A stretch of 64,000 nt of DNA from the NCBI RefSeq assembly GCF_900258515.1, contig NZ_LT984884.1, forward strand, positions 131,246 to 195,245, written 5' to 3'. A program made the position numbers and the translations under genes. Shown here piece after piece: positions 13,120 through 59,654 of this stretch (the stretch's first letter is position 1; each line of letters begins with the position of its first letter). The notes below the pieces were generated by a model that was given only the letters and a program-made list of their open reading frames with translations, did no database searches and was not told where the DNA came from. Source of the DNA: Lentibacillus sp. Marseille-P4043 (lineage in GTDB: Bacteria > Bacillota > Bacilli > Bacillales > Amphibacillaceae).

Positions 13120-13428
13120 CTAGATATCAGTTATGAGGGGGGCTGCATTGGCTACATAGTTTCTATTGACATACCTTTGCCCTTCTACCAATTTTAGAAG
13201 CTTTTGAATCACTTTTTCCATAGAAATACCCGTTTTCGGAACGTCTGCCTTTTGAATAATGCGATTATAGTAATCCTCCGTATACTCAGGCATGTCCCCT
13301 AACGTTAGTTTGTTAGGATCCTTTAATTCATCTATTTTCGTTAAAATCGTCTTAAAGTAGGACAATAATTCCTCTCTTTGAAAGTCATTCCCATCCATAC
13401 TAGGAAACAATTTTTGTATTTCCTTCAT
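13120..13428 (-). pseudogene. Truncated PLP-dependent decarboxylase (N-terminal fragment)
   Basis: This 102-residue frame has its own AAGGAGG-type ribosome binding site. It matches the beginning of group II pyridoxal-phosphate decarboxylases (glutamate/tyrosine/aspartate type): LFPSMDGND at the start, then VEGQRYVNRNYVANAAPL, the segment that normally leads into the large PLP domain. Here the frame ends five residues later at a TAG, and the following DNA is unrelated. The PLP lysine and the whole catalytic domain, more than 400 residues, are missing, so it cannot be an active decarboxylase. It follows the symporter gene closely, suggesting a former transporter-decarboxylase pair. Confidence 0.7.
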
Positions 13429-13464: not shown

Positions 13465-14829
13465 TTATTTAAAGAAACTTAGAATCCAGTCAGATAGCCC
13501 TGCTGCATCTAAGAAAACAATGATGATAGCGATTGGAACGATGTATTTTAAAAGAAAATAACAGATGTAAAAGAATACGTATCCTATATTCGATCCTTGT
13601 TTTAATTCGTTAAACAAATCTTCTTTTGAAATTTTCCAGGATACAAAAATTGAAATTAATAAGGCACCTAAAGGCATTAAAATATTACTGACTGCATAAT
13701 CCATCAAATCAAAAATCGTCTTATTAAAGAACTGGACATTTGCTAATACACCGTACGAAAGACAGGCTGGGACCCCAACAATAAATATAAGAATACCAAT
13801 CACCCAAGTACTTTTCTTGCGTTTACTCGGATCATTTTTAGTAACTGCCGCCACAATAATTTGAATCATAGAAAATGCTGAAGTGAAAGCAGCAAATAAA
13901 AATAATATTAAAAACGCCAAAAAGAATAGCATTCCATAAGGCATTTGTTCAAACACGGCCGGTAAAACAGCGAATATTAAAACAGGTCCAGCATCCGGTT
14001 CAATCCCAAATGAAAAAACCCCTGGGAAAATGGCTAATCCTGCCAATAAAGCAATGACAATATTTAAGATAATGATAGAAATTGCTGACCGAGGTAGATT
14101 TTGCGTCTTAGGTAAATAAGAAGCATATGTAAGCATTACCGAAACACCTAATGACAGCGTAAAGAATGCTTGTCCAAGTGCAAATAAGATACTCTCAGAA
14201 GTCAACTTTGAAAAATCTGGTACTAGCAGAAATTTCACACCTTCAATCGCACCATCTAGGCTCAAGGAACGAATCACTAATATCAAAAATAAAAAAACTA
14301 AGGCTGGCATCATGACTTTACTTGCTGATTCAATACCTTTTTGAATACCTTGAGAAACGACAAGAATTGTGATGAGCATAAAAACAAGCTGGGCCGCAAT
14401 CACGGAAAACGGGTTAGAAATAATTTTGCCAAATAGCTCCCCATACTGATCCTGCGTCAATCCATTTAATTCGCCGCTCAAAGTTTTAACAATGTATAAA
14501 ATGATCCATCCACCTACAACACTGTAAAACGATAGAAGTACAAAGCTTGTAAAGACACCGAGTTTCCCTATAATATTCCACTTCTTTGATGCTAGTTTGC
14601 CATATGTTTGTACAGGATCACTTTGGCCCATTCTTCCTATCATAAATTCTCCTAATAATAAGGGCATTCCCAAAACTAGTGTGAAAGCTAAAAATATGAA
14701 TAAGAAAGCTCCCCCACCACCAGTTCCGGCAACATAAGGGAATTTCCAAATAGCCCCAAGCCCTATCGCCGAACCAGCTGCTGCTAAAATAAATCCTATT
14801 TTTGATCTCCATTGCTCTTGTTGTGACAT
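13465..14829 (-). CDS. Neurotransmitter:sodium symporter (NSS/SNF family)
   Basis: The 454-residue membrane protein has the NSS signature at its N-terminus ([19 protein letters not shown]), with the unwound first helix that binds Na+ and substrate, and 11-12 predicted helices in a LeuT-like fold. These carriers move amino acids or related amines with Na+. The truncated PLP decarboxylase next to it hints that the substrate was the amino acid it decarboxylated, perhaps glutamate, tyrosine or aspartate; this is inference. The start is ATG 14829. No MetS-like small subunit frame is seen after it. Confidence 0.93.
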
Positions 14830-14931: not shown

Positions 14932-14966
14932 AAGCTTCTCACAAGTTTGATCAACTTATGAGAAGC
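14932..14966 (-). terminator. Terminator of the STAS/GNAT/chemotaxis receptor operon
   Basis: GCTTCTCA (14934-14941) pairs with TGAGAAGC (14959-14966), with a T-rich tail on the minus strand. It is about 70 bases past the receptor stop. Confidence 0.7.
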
Positions 14967-15032: not shown

Positions 15033-16184
15033 TTAAGCTTCCTCTGTTCCAGCACCATCTAATAGTATATTGTTGACGTCATTTCTTAATTCTGAAAGGC
15101 TCTTTGCTTCCTGAACTAATTTTTGTATTGTATCTAGCTCATCATCACTAATTTCTACAAGTTCCTCGAACATTTCAACAGATTCCTGAGAGATAGAAGT
15201 TATCTCTACCATTGATGCCATTATCTGCTGAGAAGCAGAAGATAATTCTTCTGTACTTGCAGAAGAATTTGCATTGTTTTCAGCAATAATCTTTGTAGCA
15301 GATAGAATCTTTTCAAACATAGTTCCAATCTCTTCAACGGTCGTATTTGCATCTTTAAATTCTTCTATTCCCTGTTGCATCGAATTAACTACTATTTCCG
15401 TTTCTCCTTGTATATTCTTTACAATATCTGATACTTCAGAAGAAGACTGACGAGATTGTTCAGCCAATTTTCGTACCTCGTCGGCAACAACCGCAAAGCC
15501 TTTACCGTGCTCACCTGCACGTGCTGCTTCTATTGTCGCATTCAATGCCAATAGATTGATTTGTTCTGAAATCCCTGTAATCACTTTTACAATCGTATCG
15601 ATTTCGTGAGAACTTTCTCCAAGTTTATTTATTGCACCAAATGTTGTATTTACCGTTTGATTAAACTGCCCCATTTTCTCCAAAGAATCTTTTAGCTTTA
15701 CATTTCCTTCTTGCGTCAATTCTAAGGTAGTATTCGATTGTTCCGAAATTTGATTTGACCTCACCGAAAGATCTTCGATAGACTGTGTCATTTCTTCCAT
15801 AGACATTGTACTTTCTTCTGTAGCTACTAATTGTTTCTTTAATCCTCTACCTACCTCATCGATTGCTGCTCTTACAATATCGGCTTTCTCGGTTGCGTAT
15901 TCACCGACTTCAGCAAGATTTTCTCCTTTTTTATGAACACTTGTTGAAAATGAATGAAACTTCTCCCTTACATGGCCAAAGAATTCGATTAGTTGATTAA
16001 ATACAGTATGATCGGCGCTTTTTTCATCAACTTTACTACCGATATTACCTGCCGATATTTCTCTCATTCCATTTAAGATTTCTTTATTTATATGGGGTTG
16101 ATGCTTCAGTGAAAAATATTGATAAGCAAAATACACTGTTGTCCCCAATAAGATAACAATAATAACTAACATTATGGCTTCCAT
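15033..16184 (-). CDS. Chemotaxis receptor with no extracellular domain
   Basis: The 383-residue protein starts with one membrane helix (about residues 4-24) and goes straight into a cytoplasmic region ([15 protein letters not shown], a HAMP-like start), then the receptor coiled coil. The conserved tip is present ([16 protein letters not shown], then [16 protein letters not shown]). No outside ligand domain exists, so it must sense an internal or membrane signal. It is the third gene of an operon with the GNAT-like and STAS-like genes, 53 bases after the former, and lies downstream of the cyclic di-GMP-I riboswitch at 17493-17577. That context suggests a link between c-di-GMP level and taxis. 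Confidence 0.92.
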
Positions 16185-16237
16185 GATTAATAAATCCCCT
16201 GCTTTTTTATTATTTGATTCGATCTATAATGAAAATC

Positions 16238-16948
16238 TTAAAGTTCCCTAATCAATACATAAGTTCCATCGGCTGTATTTAAAGGAATATCATTCAACCT
16301 ACTATTATCTTGATATTTATGAACAATATAATTTCCTTCAACATCTGTGTATTTCTTCATATTATGATACTTTTCCAAAACACGTATCGATTTCGGATTT
16401 GTCGCTTCAACCAAAACAGCCTTCAACCCTTGCGAAGATGCCTTTGTTATCAGTCTATTTCCTAATTGCTGAATAATTTCGTGACGGTTATGTTCAGCTG
16501 TTACCCCTATCATGAATAGGTGGAATATCTCTCCGTCATTAAGTTCTTTTCCGTTTCGTTCTTTATAATCCTCCAAGAAGCGTTTATCCACATCTTCCAA
16601 AGCATGCACAATAACATTCATATCATAAAAAGAACCTTCAAATACATCTTCCCCGATAATCTCTGGCGCATTTGTATCACCGGCAAAGACACCGACAACC
16701 TCATTATTACTATCTTGAGCGACTGCGCAGTATCCCTGATCAACTATAGTGTTTAAATAATCCTTGGTAAACTCGAAGAAATCTTCATAATTTATATTTA
16801 ACTGACCTACCATCGGTTCCTGTACCCATTTGCCTGAAACATCCACTCCAACAAATGAACGTGCTAGACACTCAGCTGCTCTCTGAATTAAATCTGTTTG
16901 TTCCTTCGTTATAATTTCGTATGTATATAACTCTAATGTTGTTTGCAC
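16238..16948 (-). CDS. GNAT-fold acetyltransferase-like protein
   Basis: The 236-residue protein begins at GTG 16948 after AAGGAAGT. The fold of GCN5-related N-acetyltransferases is recognisable: an N-terminal helix with AAECLARSFVG, a central strand pair around YCAVAQDSNNEVVGVFAGD, a strand FHLFMIGVTAEHNRHEIIQQLGNRLI with the acetyl-CoA-binding bend, and VLVEATNPKSIRVLEKYHNMK. The usual Q/RxxGxG/A loop is altered to NRHEIIQQLG. Substrate unknown. It is the middle gene of the riboswitch-led operon, 48 bases after the STAS-like gene. It could modify a protein partner of the receptor, which is inference. Confidence 0.75.
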   Translation of the reverse strand: MQTTLELYTYEIITKEQTDLIQRAAECLARSFVGVDVSGKWVQEPMVGQLNINYEDFFEFTKDYLNTIVDQGYCAVAQDSNNEVVGVFAGDTNAPEIIGEDVFEGSFYDMNVIVHALEDVDKRFLEDYKERNGKELNDGEIFHLFMIGVTAEHNRHEIIQQLGNRLITKASSQGLKAVLVEATNPKSIRVLEKYHNMKKYTDVEGNYIVHKYQDNSRLNDIPLNTADGTYVLIREL

Positions 16949-16996
16949 TTATTAACTTCCTTTCACATTTAAAAATTCCTAATTAGAAACCTAACA

Positions 16997-17365
16997 TTAC
17001 ACAGAACGAGGTACATCATCGACAATTGTACCTGAGAAATCTATTCTTTCAAGTACATTCCTAATTTGCACTTGAGCAATCTTAGATGAAGGATTTACTA
17101 CAAGGACATCCTTAAAACCCAAGGTGGAATAAAATTGCATCGTTTCTTCCAACTGTGGTACCACTTTTGATGGAACCGGCGTTTGGTAAGTTGCATCGAC
17201 AACAAATGTATAATTTTGTCTTGATACTTTATTAATTGTATCCTGTAAATCTGTCATATAACCTTCTACATCTTCCTCTCTCATCAATCCATGCACCTGT
17301 ACATGTACTTCCTTGACGGGTTCATTTACCGCCATTTTATATTTCTTTTTATCTACAACTATCAT
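16997..17365 (-). CDS. STAS/SpoIIAA-like small protein
   Basis: The 122-residue protein starts at ATG 17365 with a strong AAAGGAGG site. Its layout fits a STAS or SpoIIAA-like fold: strand (KEVHVQVHG), helix (DVEGYMTDLQDTINKV), strand (YTFVVDATYQT), helix (LEETMQFYSTLGF), strand (KDVLVVNP), helix. No clear phosphorylatable Ser/Thr of the anti-anti-sigma type is obvious to me, although a DA-T segment occurs after the central strand. First gene of the operon, directly downstream of the riboswitch terminator. Function unknown; a partner-binding role beside the GNAT-like protein and receptor is plausible. Confidence 0.65.
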   Translation of the reverse strand: MIVVDKKKYKMAVNEPVKEVHVQVHGLMREEDVEGYMTDLQDTINKVSRQNYTFVVDATYQTPVPSKVVPQLEETMQFYSTLGFKDVLVVNPSSKIAQVQIRNVLERIDFSGTIVDDVPRSV

Positions 17366-17439
17366 CTCTAATCCTCCTTTTTTCCTATAATCCGCTACAT
17401 TTCGTTGTTGCAGTTTGTATGGTTTTTTCGTAAGAGCAT

Positions 17440-17476
17440 AAAAAAAGACTATCCCATATGTAGACAGGGATAACCA
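17440..17476 (-). terminator. Terminator of the c-di-GMP riboswitch
   Basis: On the minus strand TTATCCC pairs with GGGATAG, followed directly by TCTTTTTTT. It lies 16 bases after the aptamer and 75 bases before the STAS-like start codon, so it can decide whether the operon is read. The sense of control (on or off with ligand) cannot be read safely by eye. Confidence 0.82.
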
Positions 17477-17492
17477 AATAATCCTTCACATA

Positions 17493-17577
17493 ATACTGGC
17501 AACCCGACTATCATTATCCATAGGGATTTTAGACTCGTAGCTTTGTGTCCTTACCTTTCGATAAGTTTACCTTTTTC
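17493..17577 (-). promoter_or_regulatory. Cyclic di-GMP-I (GEMM-I) riboswitch aptamer
   Basis: Read on the minus strand, the aptamer opens with AAAGGTAAAC, then a perfect 6-bp stem CTTATC/GGTAAG closed by a GAAA tetraloop, then GGACACAAAGC, the family's near-invariant core. A second stem follows (CGAGTCTAA, inner ATCC/GGAT hairpin, GATAGTCGGG), ending in GGGTTGCC. Order, tetraloop and core sequences all match the GEMM-I class that binds cyclic di-GMP. It sits between a consensus promoter and a terminator, ahead of the STAS, GNAT and chemotaxis receptor genes. Confidence 0.93.
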
Positions 17578-17625
17578 AATTTTTATAAACATAGGACTAA
17601 ACTCATGCTCATATATTACTATATC

Positions 17626-17654
17626 ATTATAAACATTTTGTCGATTTTTGTCGA
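17626..17654 (-). promoter_or_regulatory. Sigma-A promoter of the c-di-GMP-controlled operon
   Basis: On the minus strand TCGACA (17649-17654), a 17-base spacer and a perfect TATAAT (17626-17631). Transcription would begin near 17619, about 40 bases ahead of the aptamer. Confidence 0.8.
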
Positions 17655-17685: not shown

Positions 17686-17775
17686 GGGACGCGGGGACAG
17701 GTTTCTTGTCCCAGGCTGAATTGGCATAGTGGCAAGCTTGCCGCGCGGGACACCTAACCTGTCCCCACGTCCCGC
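17686..17775. repeat. Paired REP-like element (inverted pair)
   Basis: GGGACGCGGGGACAGGTTTC is mirrored by CACCTAACCTGTCCCCACGT, with GGCATAGTGGCAAG in the loop. It is nearly the same as the unit at 11217-11325 and lies just upstream of the riboswitch promoter. Confidence 0.8.
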
Positions 17776-17944
17776 TTATCAACGGCTGTTCCATTTATAT
17801 ATTCTCCCCACAATGTCCCTATTTCAGTAGATGTGAGCTTCAAACCTTCTATTGAAAAATAATCATTGATCTATTAAACAACACATATATTATCCATGCC
17901 ACACTAATAAGGCAAATCCATCGCAAATACTTGGTAAAAAGCCA

Positions 17945-59513: not shown

Positions 59514-59563
59514 ATAGCAAATAAACATGAATTATATCCATAAAACAGCAACAATTCATCCTC

Positions 59564-59633
59564 CCTCATAGTCCAGCATTTACGGTGCTGGGTAGAAACT
59601 TCCAAGCCATATTCTCAGGAAATATATGAGGAA
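59564..59633 (-). promoter_or_regulatory. Purine riboswitch, guanine/hypoxanthine class
   Basis: On the minus strand the P1 arms CCTCAT and ATGAGG enclose the aptamer. The first hairpin is CCTGAGAATATGGCTTGG, then AAGTTTCTACC, the second hairpin CAGCACCGTAAATGCTGG, then ACTAT. The GAATATGG and CCGTAAAT loops form the known kissing contact. The ligand-reading base in J3/1 (GACTAT) is C, as in xpt-type guanine switches; adenine switches have U there. It heads the pur operon. Confidence 0.95.
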
Positions 59634-59654
59634 CCGTATTCGTTTGTTGTCTTA

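Follow-up and report, generated by a model that had tools for sequence, protein, structure and literature searches.

Within a 64,000-nucleotide stretch of Lentibacillus sp. Marseille-P4043 (contig NZ_LT984884.1, positions 131,246 to 195,245; hereafter the window), a class I cyclic di-GMP (c-di-GMP) riboswitch, GEMM-I, precedes three genes encoding a STAS-fold protein, a GNAT-fold protein and a chemoreceptor (methyl-accepting chemotaxis protein, MCP). The reading that we favour, with a probability of about 0.5, is that a c-di-GMP OFF riboswitch controls this three-gene operon, and that the operon provides an input module for a chemoreceptor; the trio probably makes a navigation receptor that reports on the cell interior. 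The aptamer, the terminator, the alternative pairing between them, the gene order and its conservation are read from the sequence itself. The original prediction of a c-di-GMP-controlled STAS-GNAT-receptor module is supported: the leader scores above the family threshold of the covariance model, the gene neighbourhood is conserved, and the riboswitch is retained in most of the related loci. Coordinates are window positions on the (-) strand unless another stretch is named.

The leader includes a putative sigma-A type promoter (17626-17654, TCGACA-17-TATAAT, 11 of 12 positions), the aptamer (17495-17581) and an intrinsic terminator with a T tail, the expression platform (17440-17475). The covariance model RF01051 matched the aptamer over its full length with 85 bits (gathering score 35; E 2.4e-15 in 64 kb; Rfam); the predicted GEMM-I aptamer was therefore confirmed at its site, with the bounds first given to it (17493-17577) a few bases off. 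Its helices are 98.7% paired over an alignment of 25 leaders (the window, 23 of the 24 GEMM-bearing named loci described below, and L067; L023 was omitted as near-identical to L020), and the window carries a compensatory change, U13-A36 in place of the C13-G36 pair found in 23 of the aligned sequences. It also has G at the ligand-contact position 11, which corresponds to G20 of Vc2 (correspondence taken from Bc1, as given in an excerpt of PMC11218506); the aptamer at L029:4342-4428 has A at this position, and its ligand choice may differ. The promoter is the best of 14 matches in the pattern scan, and TATAAT stands upstream of the aptamer in 18/25 related leaders, with TATACT in five more (by eye; 70 nt viewed). 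Shuffled sequences give 13.2 matches, so the promoter match is by itself weak proof. The leader terminator, predicted at 17440-17476, was found as a stem-loop of nine pairs (17447-17475) followed by the T tail (17440-17446); the stock scanner missed it because the loop has 11 nt and the scanner limit is 8. A terminator is present in all 25 related leaders (23 automatically; by eye in L022 and L029, where the T run is broken). Two further features were seen around the promoter: a conserved block between promoter and aptamer (17582-17625 and relatives), which in many relatives contains the inverted repeat ATAGTA ... TACTAT, and a long GC-rich palindrome-like stretch just upstream of the promoter (~17686-17777, GGGACGCGGGGACAGG ... 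CCTGTCCCCACGTCCC).

The 3' strand of the aptamer (GGGUUGCCAG, 17496-17505) is able to pair, by the alignment, with the 5' arm and flank of the terminator (UUGGUUAUCCC, 17467-17477), a segment common to the terminator and this putative antiterminator; in most leaders the strand reads GGGUUGCCAA, opposite a terminator 5' arm UUGGCUAUCCC. Over the 25 sequences the antiterminator has 97.8% of its cells paired, against 24-66% when it is slid by one to three columns; for the terminator the figure is 98.7%, and four sequences carry a two-sided change at one of its pairs. In equilibrium folds, which carry no ligand term and are not cotranscriptional, the median probability of the terminator over the 25 leaders rises from 0.08 unconstrained to 0.73 with the aptamer forced, and the rise exceeds 0.2 in 19 of them. 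The leader of a third GEMM-I riboswitch of the same genome remains unchanged under the same treatment (0.99 to 1.00), and the effect of forcing the aptamer is therefore not automatic. The platform, that of the window included, is of the OFF (Cd1-like) type, with the 3' strand pairing with the terminator 5' arm and the aptamer compatible with the terminator, a behaviour weak or absent in 6/25 leaders. Judging from these folds, the riboswitch most likely works as a transcriptional OFF switch.

The open reading frames downstream, of 122, 236 and 383 aa (16997-17365, 16238-16948 and 15033-16184), are each preceded by a ribosome-binding-site-like stretch and are followed by one terminator (14934-14966, scanner), which agrees with the predicted three closely spaced genes and single terminator; similar hairpins lie between the MCP and decarboxylase genes in many relatives (by eye). 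The 122 aa protein has a SpoIIAA-like fold and matched no Pfam STAS family at E up to 1, so it is called STAS-fold and not a Pfam STAS member; the predicted STAS-like partner thus stands by fold, but not by family. The 236 aa protein has the GNAT fold of the arylalkylamine/polyamine N-acetyltransferases, with a Pfam match just under the cut-off (19.7 vs 20.7 bits). The acetyl-CoA loop motif of GNATs, Q/RxxGxG/A, is absent from all 66 aligned sequences (no Gly at 157, no Gly/Ala at 159), and position 191, the site of a catalytic Tyr in many GNATs, is Met, Leu, Ala or Phe. The partner predicted to be acetyltransferase-like has therefore the fold but not the signature. The MCP (PF00015, 141.8 bits) has a conserved signalling domain tip, methylation site motifs at residues 308 and 315 (pattern search), one N-terminal hydrophobic segment by hydropathy and no extracellular sensor domain, which is in line with the membrane-anchored, internally sensing receptor that had been proposed.

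With the GNAT protein as the sole query, a scan of one genome for each species gave 25 named Bacillales loci (Fredinandcohnia, Cytobacillus, Viridibacillus, Heyndrickxia, Lysinibacillus, Terribacillus, Ureibacillus, Psychrobacillus, Sporosarcina, Niallia, Oceanobacillus and others), some of them closely related to one another, so that they are not 25 independent cases. The order STAS-GNAT-MCP, whose conservation the original prediction had proposed to check, is found in all 25 (L026 matches only MCP residues 1-76). A GEMM-I riboswitch is kept ahead of STAS in 24/25, with the GGC variant RF03167 as the best model in L025, but does not stand directly ahead of it in five more diverged loci: four diverged trios (L068, L069, L071, L072) and a STAS and MCP pair without GNAT (L070). 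GEMM-I lies between divergent STAS and decarboxylase genes in L069, on the decarboxylase strand, and beyond the decarboxylase 3' end in L068. Within the window's own family, GNAT occurs in 6/146 genomes, the window's genome included, and GEMM-I in 110/143; of 29 loci among the best GEMM-I matches in the family, two have an MCP within ~1.4 kb downstream (crude motif check). A STAS profile search found matches in 33 of 397 genomes of the order.

The conserved unit also takes in a pyridoxal phosphate (PLP) decarboxylase gene and, in some genomes, a symporter gene. The decarboxylase (PF00282) lies within 2 kb downstream of the trio in 21/25 named loci and divergently upstream of STAS in L068, L069, L071 and L072; none was found in the locus stretches of L010, L019, L026 and L031. 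Of 17 genomes with a close STAS gene, 13 have a decarboxylase orthologue (E <1e-200) and the genome of the window has a 99-residue fragment of one; 16 genomes without a close STAS gene, all picked from the window's family, have none (Fisher p ~1e-6, not corrected for relatedness). The presence of GNAT and MCP was checked in three of these 17 genomes, and G206 (L070), also among the 17, has no GNAT. In the window (13465-14829), L030 and L033 the gene of an SNF-family sodium:solute symporter (PF00209) separates the MCP gene from the decarboxylase gene, and the orthologue in the latter two loci carries its own GEMM-I. Traces of the symporter persist elsewhere: part of the gene in L012, its GEMM-I ahead of an apparently internally deleted gene in L029, and the apparent 3' half of its aptamer in L017, L018 and L032 (by eye). 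Halalkalibacterium halodurans (L026) combines an MCP frame that stops after 80 codons, a weak aptamer (48.5 bits) and a locus stretch in which no decarboxylase was found, a combination which, as a single case, agrees with one unit.

Distant STAS matches (19 of 23 extracted, some of the 19 sharing a genome) have a different neighbour: a protein resembling 3-oxoacyl-ACP synthase III (KAS III) adjoins STAS in 13/19 loci (identified by Pfam in six of the 13 and by alignment in the others). Its Cys-His-Asn triad is not intact in any of the 13, with Cys kept, His replaced by Ser/Thr and Asn by Tyr. An MCP follows this protein in L078, L081, L088 and L091, and GEMM-I precedes STAS in L078 and L081, whose leaders fold as OFF switches (probability of the terminator 0.16 to 0.93 and 0.46 to 0.96 with the aptamer forced). 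In these MCPs the N-terminal membrane part is short and the signalling domain differs in length, with the HAMP match below the cut-off in two; the MCP of the trio lacks, in the alignment, the insertions by which they are distinguished. The arrangement of STAS and pseudo-enzyme is seen twice, with a pseudo-GNAT and a pseudo-KAS III and with two MCP types, and members of both versions are predicted to sit behind c-di-GMP OFF riboswitches. The two folds, which use acyl-CoA and are unrelated, each lack catalytic or cofactor residues and adjoin STAS and, at some of the loci, an MCP with no outside sensor, which suggests that the pair of STAS protein and pseudo-enzyme is the receptor's input. Only tentatively, this may be a general type of input, in which a soluble STAS protein and a catalytically dead enzyme of an acyl-CoA-using fold form an exchangeable cytoplasmic sensor for MCPs that have no sensor domain.

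The genome has seven GGDEF, two CheA-type kinase and fifteen MCP matches, and the messenger and the pathway are therefore both present. At low c-di-GMP, the motile state, the aptamer 3' strand would pair with the terminator 5' arm, allowing transcription of the operon; at high c-di-GMP the folded aptamer would free this arm, the terminator would form and the operon would be shut, so that the receptor would be built only in the swimming state. The MCP is expected to report a cytoplasmic state, because it has one N-terminal anchor, no outside sensor and a retained kinase-binding tip; the STAS and GNAT-fold proteins would be its soluble input, the GNAT fold binding a metabolite and the STAS protein passing its state to the receptor. 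The linkage to the decarboxylase and the SNF symporter, together with the amine-acetyltransferase fold, suggests that the signal is an amino acid or an amine made from it.

Two described switches bear on the direction of control: Bc1, ahead of mcpE in the Bacillus cereus group, and Cd1 of C. difficile, which we take to be the same RNA as Cdi-1-3. With Bc1, an MCP gene led by a c-di-GMP-I riboswitch was already known from a Bacillus relative, and as Bc1 is reported to work as an ON switch in a B. subtilis reporter (in the native host c-di-GMP has hardly any effect on McpE), the shared aptamer class and the downstream receptor gene would speak for an ON switch here as well (excerpt of PMC11218506). 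Bc1 differs in its two tandem terminators and long platform, and the same excerpt names mcpE alone, without STAS or GNAT, and with a product of ~68.6 kDa when tagged. In the present leader the aptamer strand takes no part in the terminator and both can coexist, which is the layout of Cd1, where the ligand-bound aptamer and the terminator coexist and compete with an antiterminator that uses the aptamer 3' strand (excerpt of PMC9262584). The terminator is moreover favoured when the aptamer is forced, and the abstract of PMC6200980 calls the C. difficile class I switches 'uniformly' off switches, among them Cdi-1-3, whose flgB operon is a motility-related target; an ON switch is accordingly very unlikely. 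The C. difficile OFF switches control flagellar genes, not a receptor module, and have a different platform sequence.

As to the proteins, the GNAT could be a working acetyltransferase that disposes of the amines made by the decarboxylase, with the MCP only co-regulated, an explanation that we consider unlikely given the replaced Gly and Gly/Ala positions, the residues at position 191 and the likewise degenerate partner in the KAS III-type relatives. It is distinctly unlikely that STAS and GNAT act with other partners, by stressosome-like partner switching or, like SiaC, by controlling a diguanylate cyclase, with feedback on c-di-GMP and the MCP as one of several outputs: the KAS III-type relatives do not retain Ser66, and the constant neighbour is the MCP (the other neighbours were not systematically annotated, and a kinase or cyclase may lie nearby). 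The receptor-input reading has in turn its limits and several observations against it. Contact of STAS and GNAT with the MCP is predicted from gene neighbourhood, and the loss of the acetyl-CoA signature is read from sequence alignments. The folding energy of the leader is ordinary (z -0.51); the antiterminator has no two-sided covariation over the 25 leaders (the shuffle control was uninformative); and six leaders do not show the rise in terminator probability (L018, L025, L026, L032 and L067 hardly change, L019 goes from 0.83 to 0.69). No riboswitch stands directly ahead of STAS in Oceanobacillus limi (L033), the exception among the 25 named loci, or in L068-L072 (STAS 57-72% identical), and the window's own decarboxylase is truncated, with only the first 102 codons left (13120-13428, by alignment to orthologues beside the trio elsewhere).

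Two further GEMM-I riboswitches are present in the genome. The second (L085:3490-3592 (+), genome C1:1175988-1176090) has motA/motB-like genes on one side and, on the other, a CheX-CheA-CheW-CheY operon with a HAMP/MCP gene after it; in G062 and G016 a CheX relative likewise starts ~120 nt after a GEMM-I. The idea that the trio serves this second riboswitch-led operon was rejected as a general rule; CheX relatives (E <1e-20) occur in 6/17 genomes with a close STAS gene and in 13/16 without, a comparison confounded by the origin of all 16 in the window's family, and the trio MCP has no KAS III-type insertions, so its class gives no hint of a special CheA. The third (L086:5107-5191 (-), genome C1:1414606-1414690) lies ahead of a 64 aa Spo0E-like gene (PF09388), a possible link of c-di-GMP to sporulation control. 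The window also holds a purine riboswitch (59549-59649 (-), 77.6 bits; Rfam).

No description of the STAS-GNAT-MCP trio was found in the literature searched, and on that basis the receptor module is undescribed. The STAS-domain-only proteins (SpoIIAA, RsbS, SiaC), reviewed as a class in PMC8256260 (excerpt), share the fold of the 122 aa protein, which differs from them in having no Pfam STAS match and in its linkage to a GNAT- or KAS III-like protein and an MCP; the arylalkylamine/polyamine N-acetyltransferases (A654L, dopamine NAT, agmatine NAT) share the fold of the 236 aa protein over ~190-200 residues, but the acetyl-CoA signature is absent from it. Many chemoreceptors lack an assigned signal, and those that have no sensor domain are especially hard to account for; a conserved operon pairing such a receptor with two small soluble proteins offers a concrete, testable input. 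If the proposed role is true, a protein labelled hypothetical or acetyltransferase in databases becomes a sensor, and the module would tie the choice between swimming and settling, made through c-di-GMP, to the signals that swimming cells follow.
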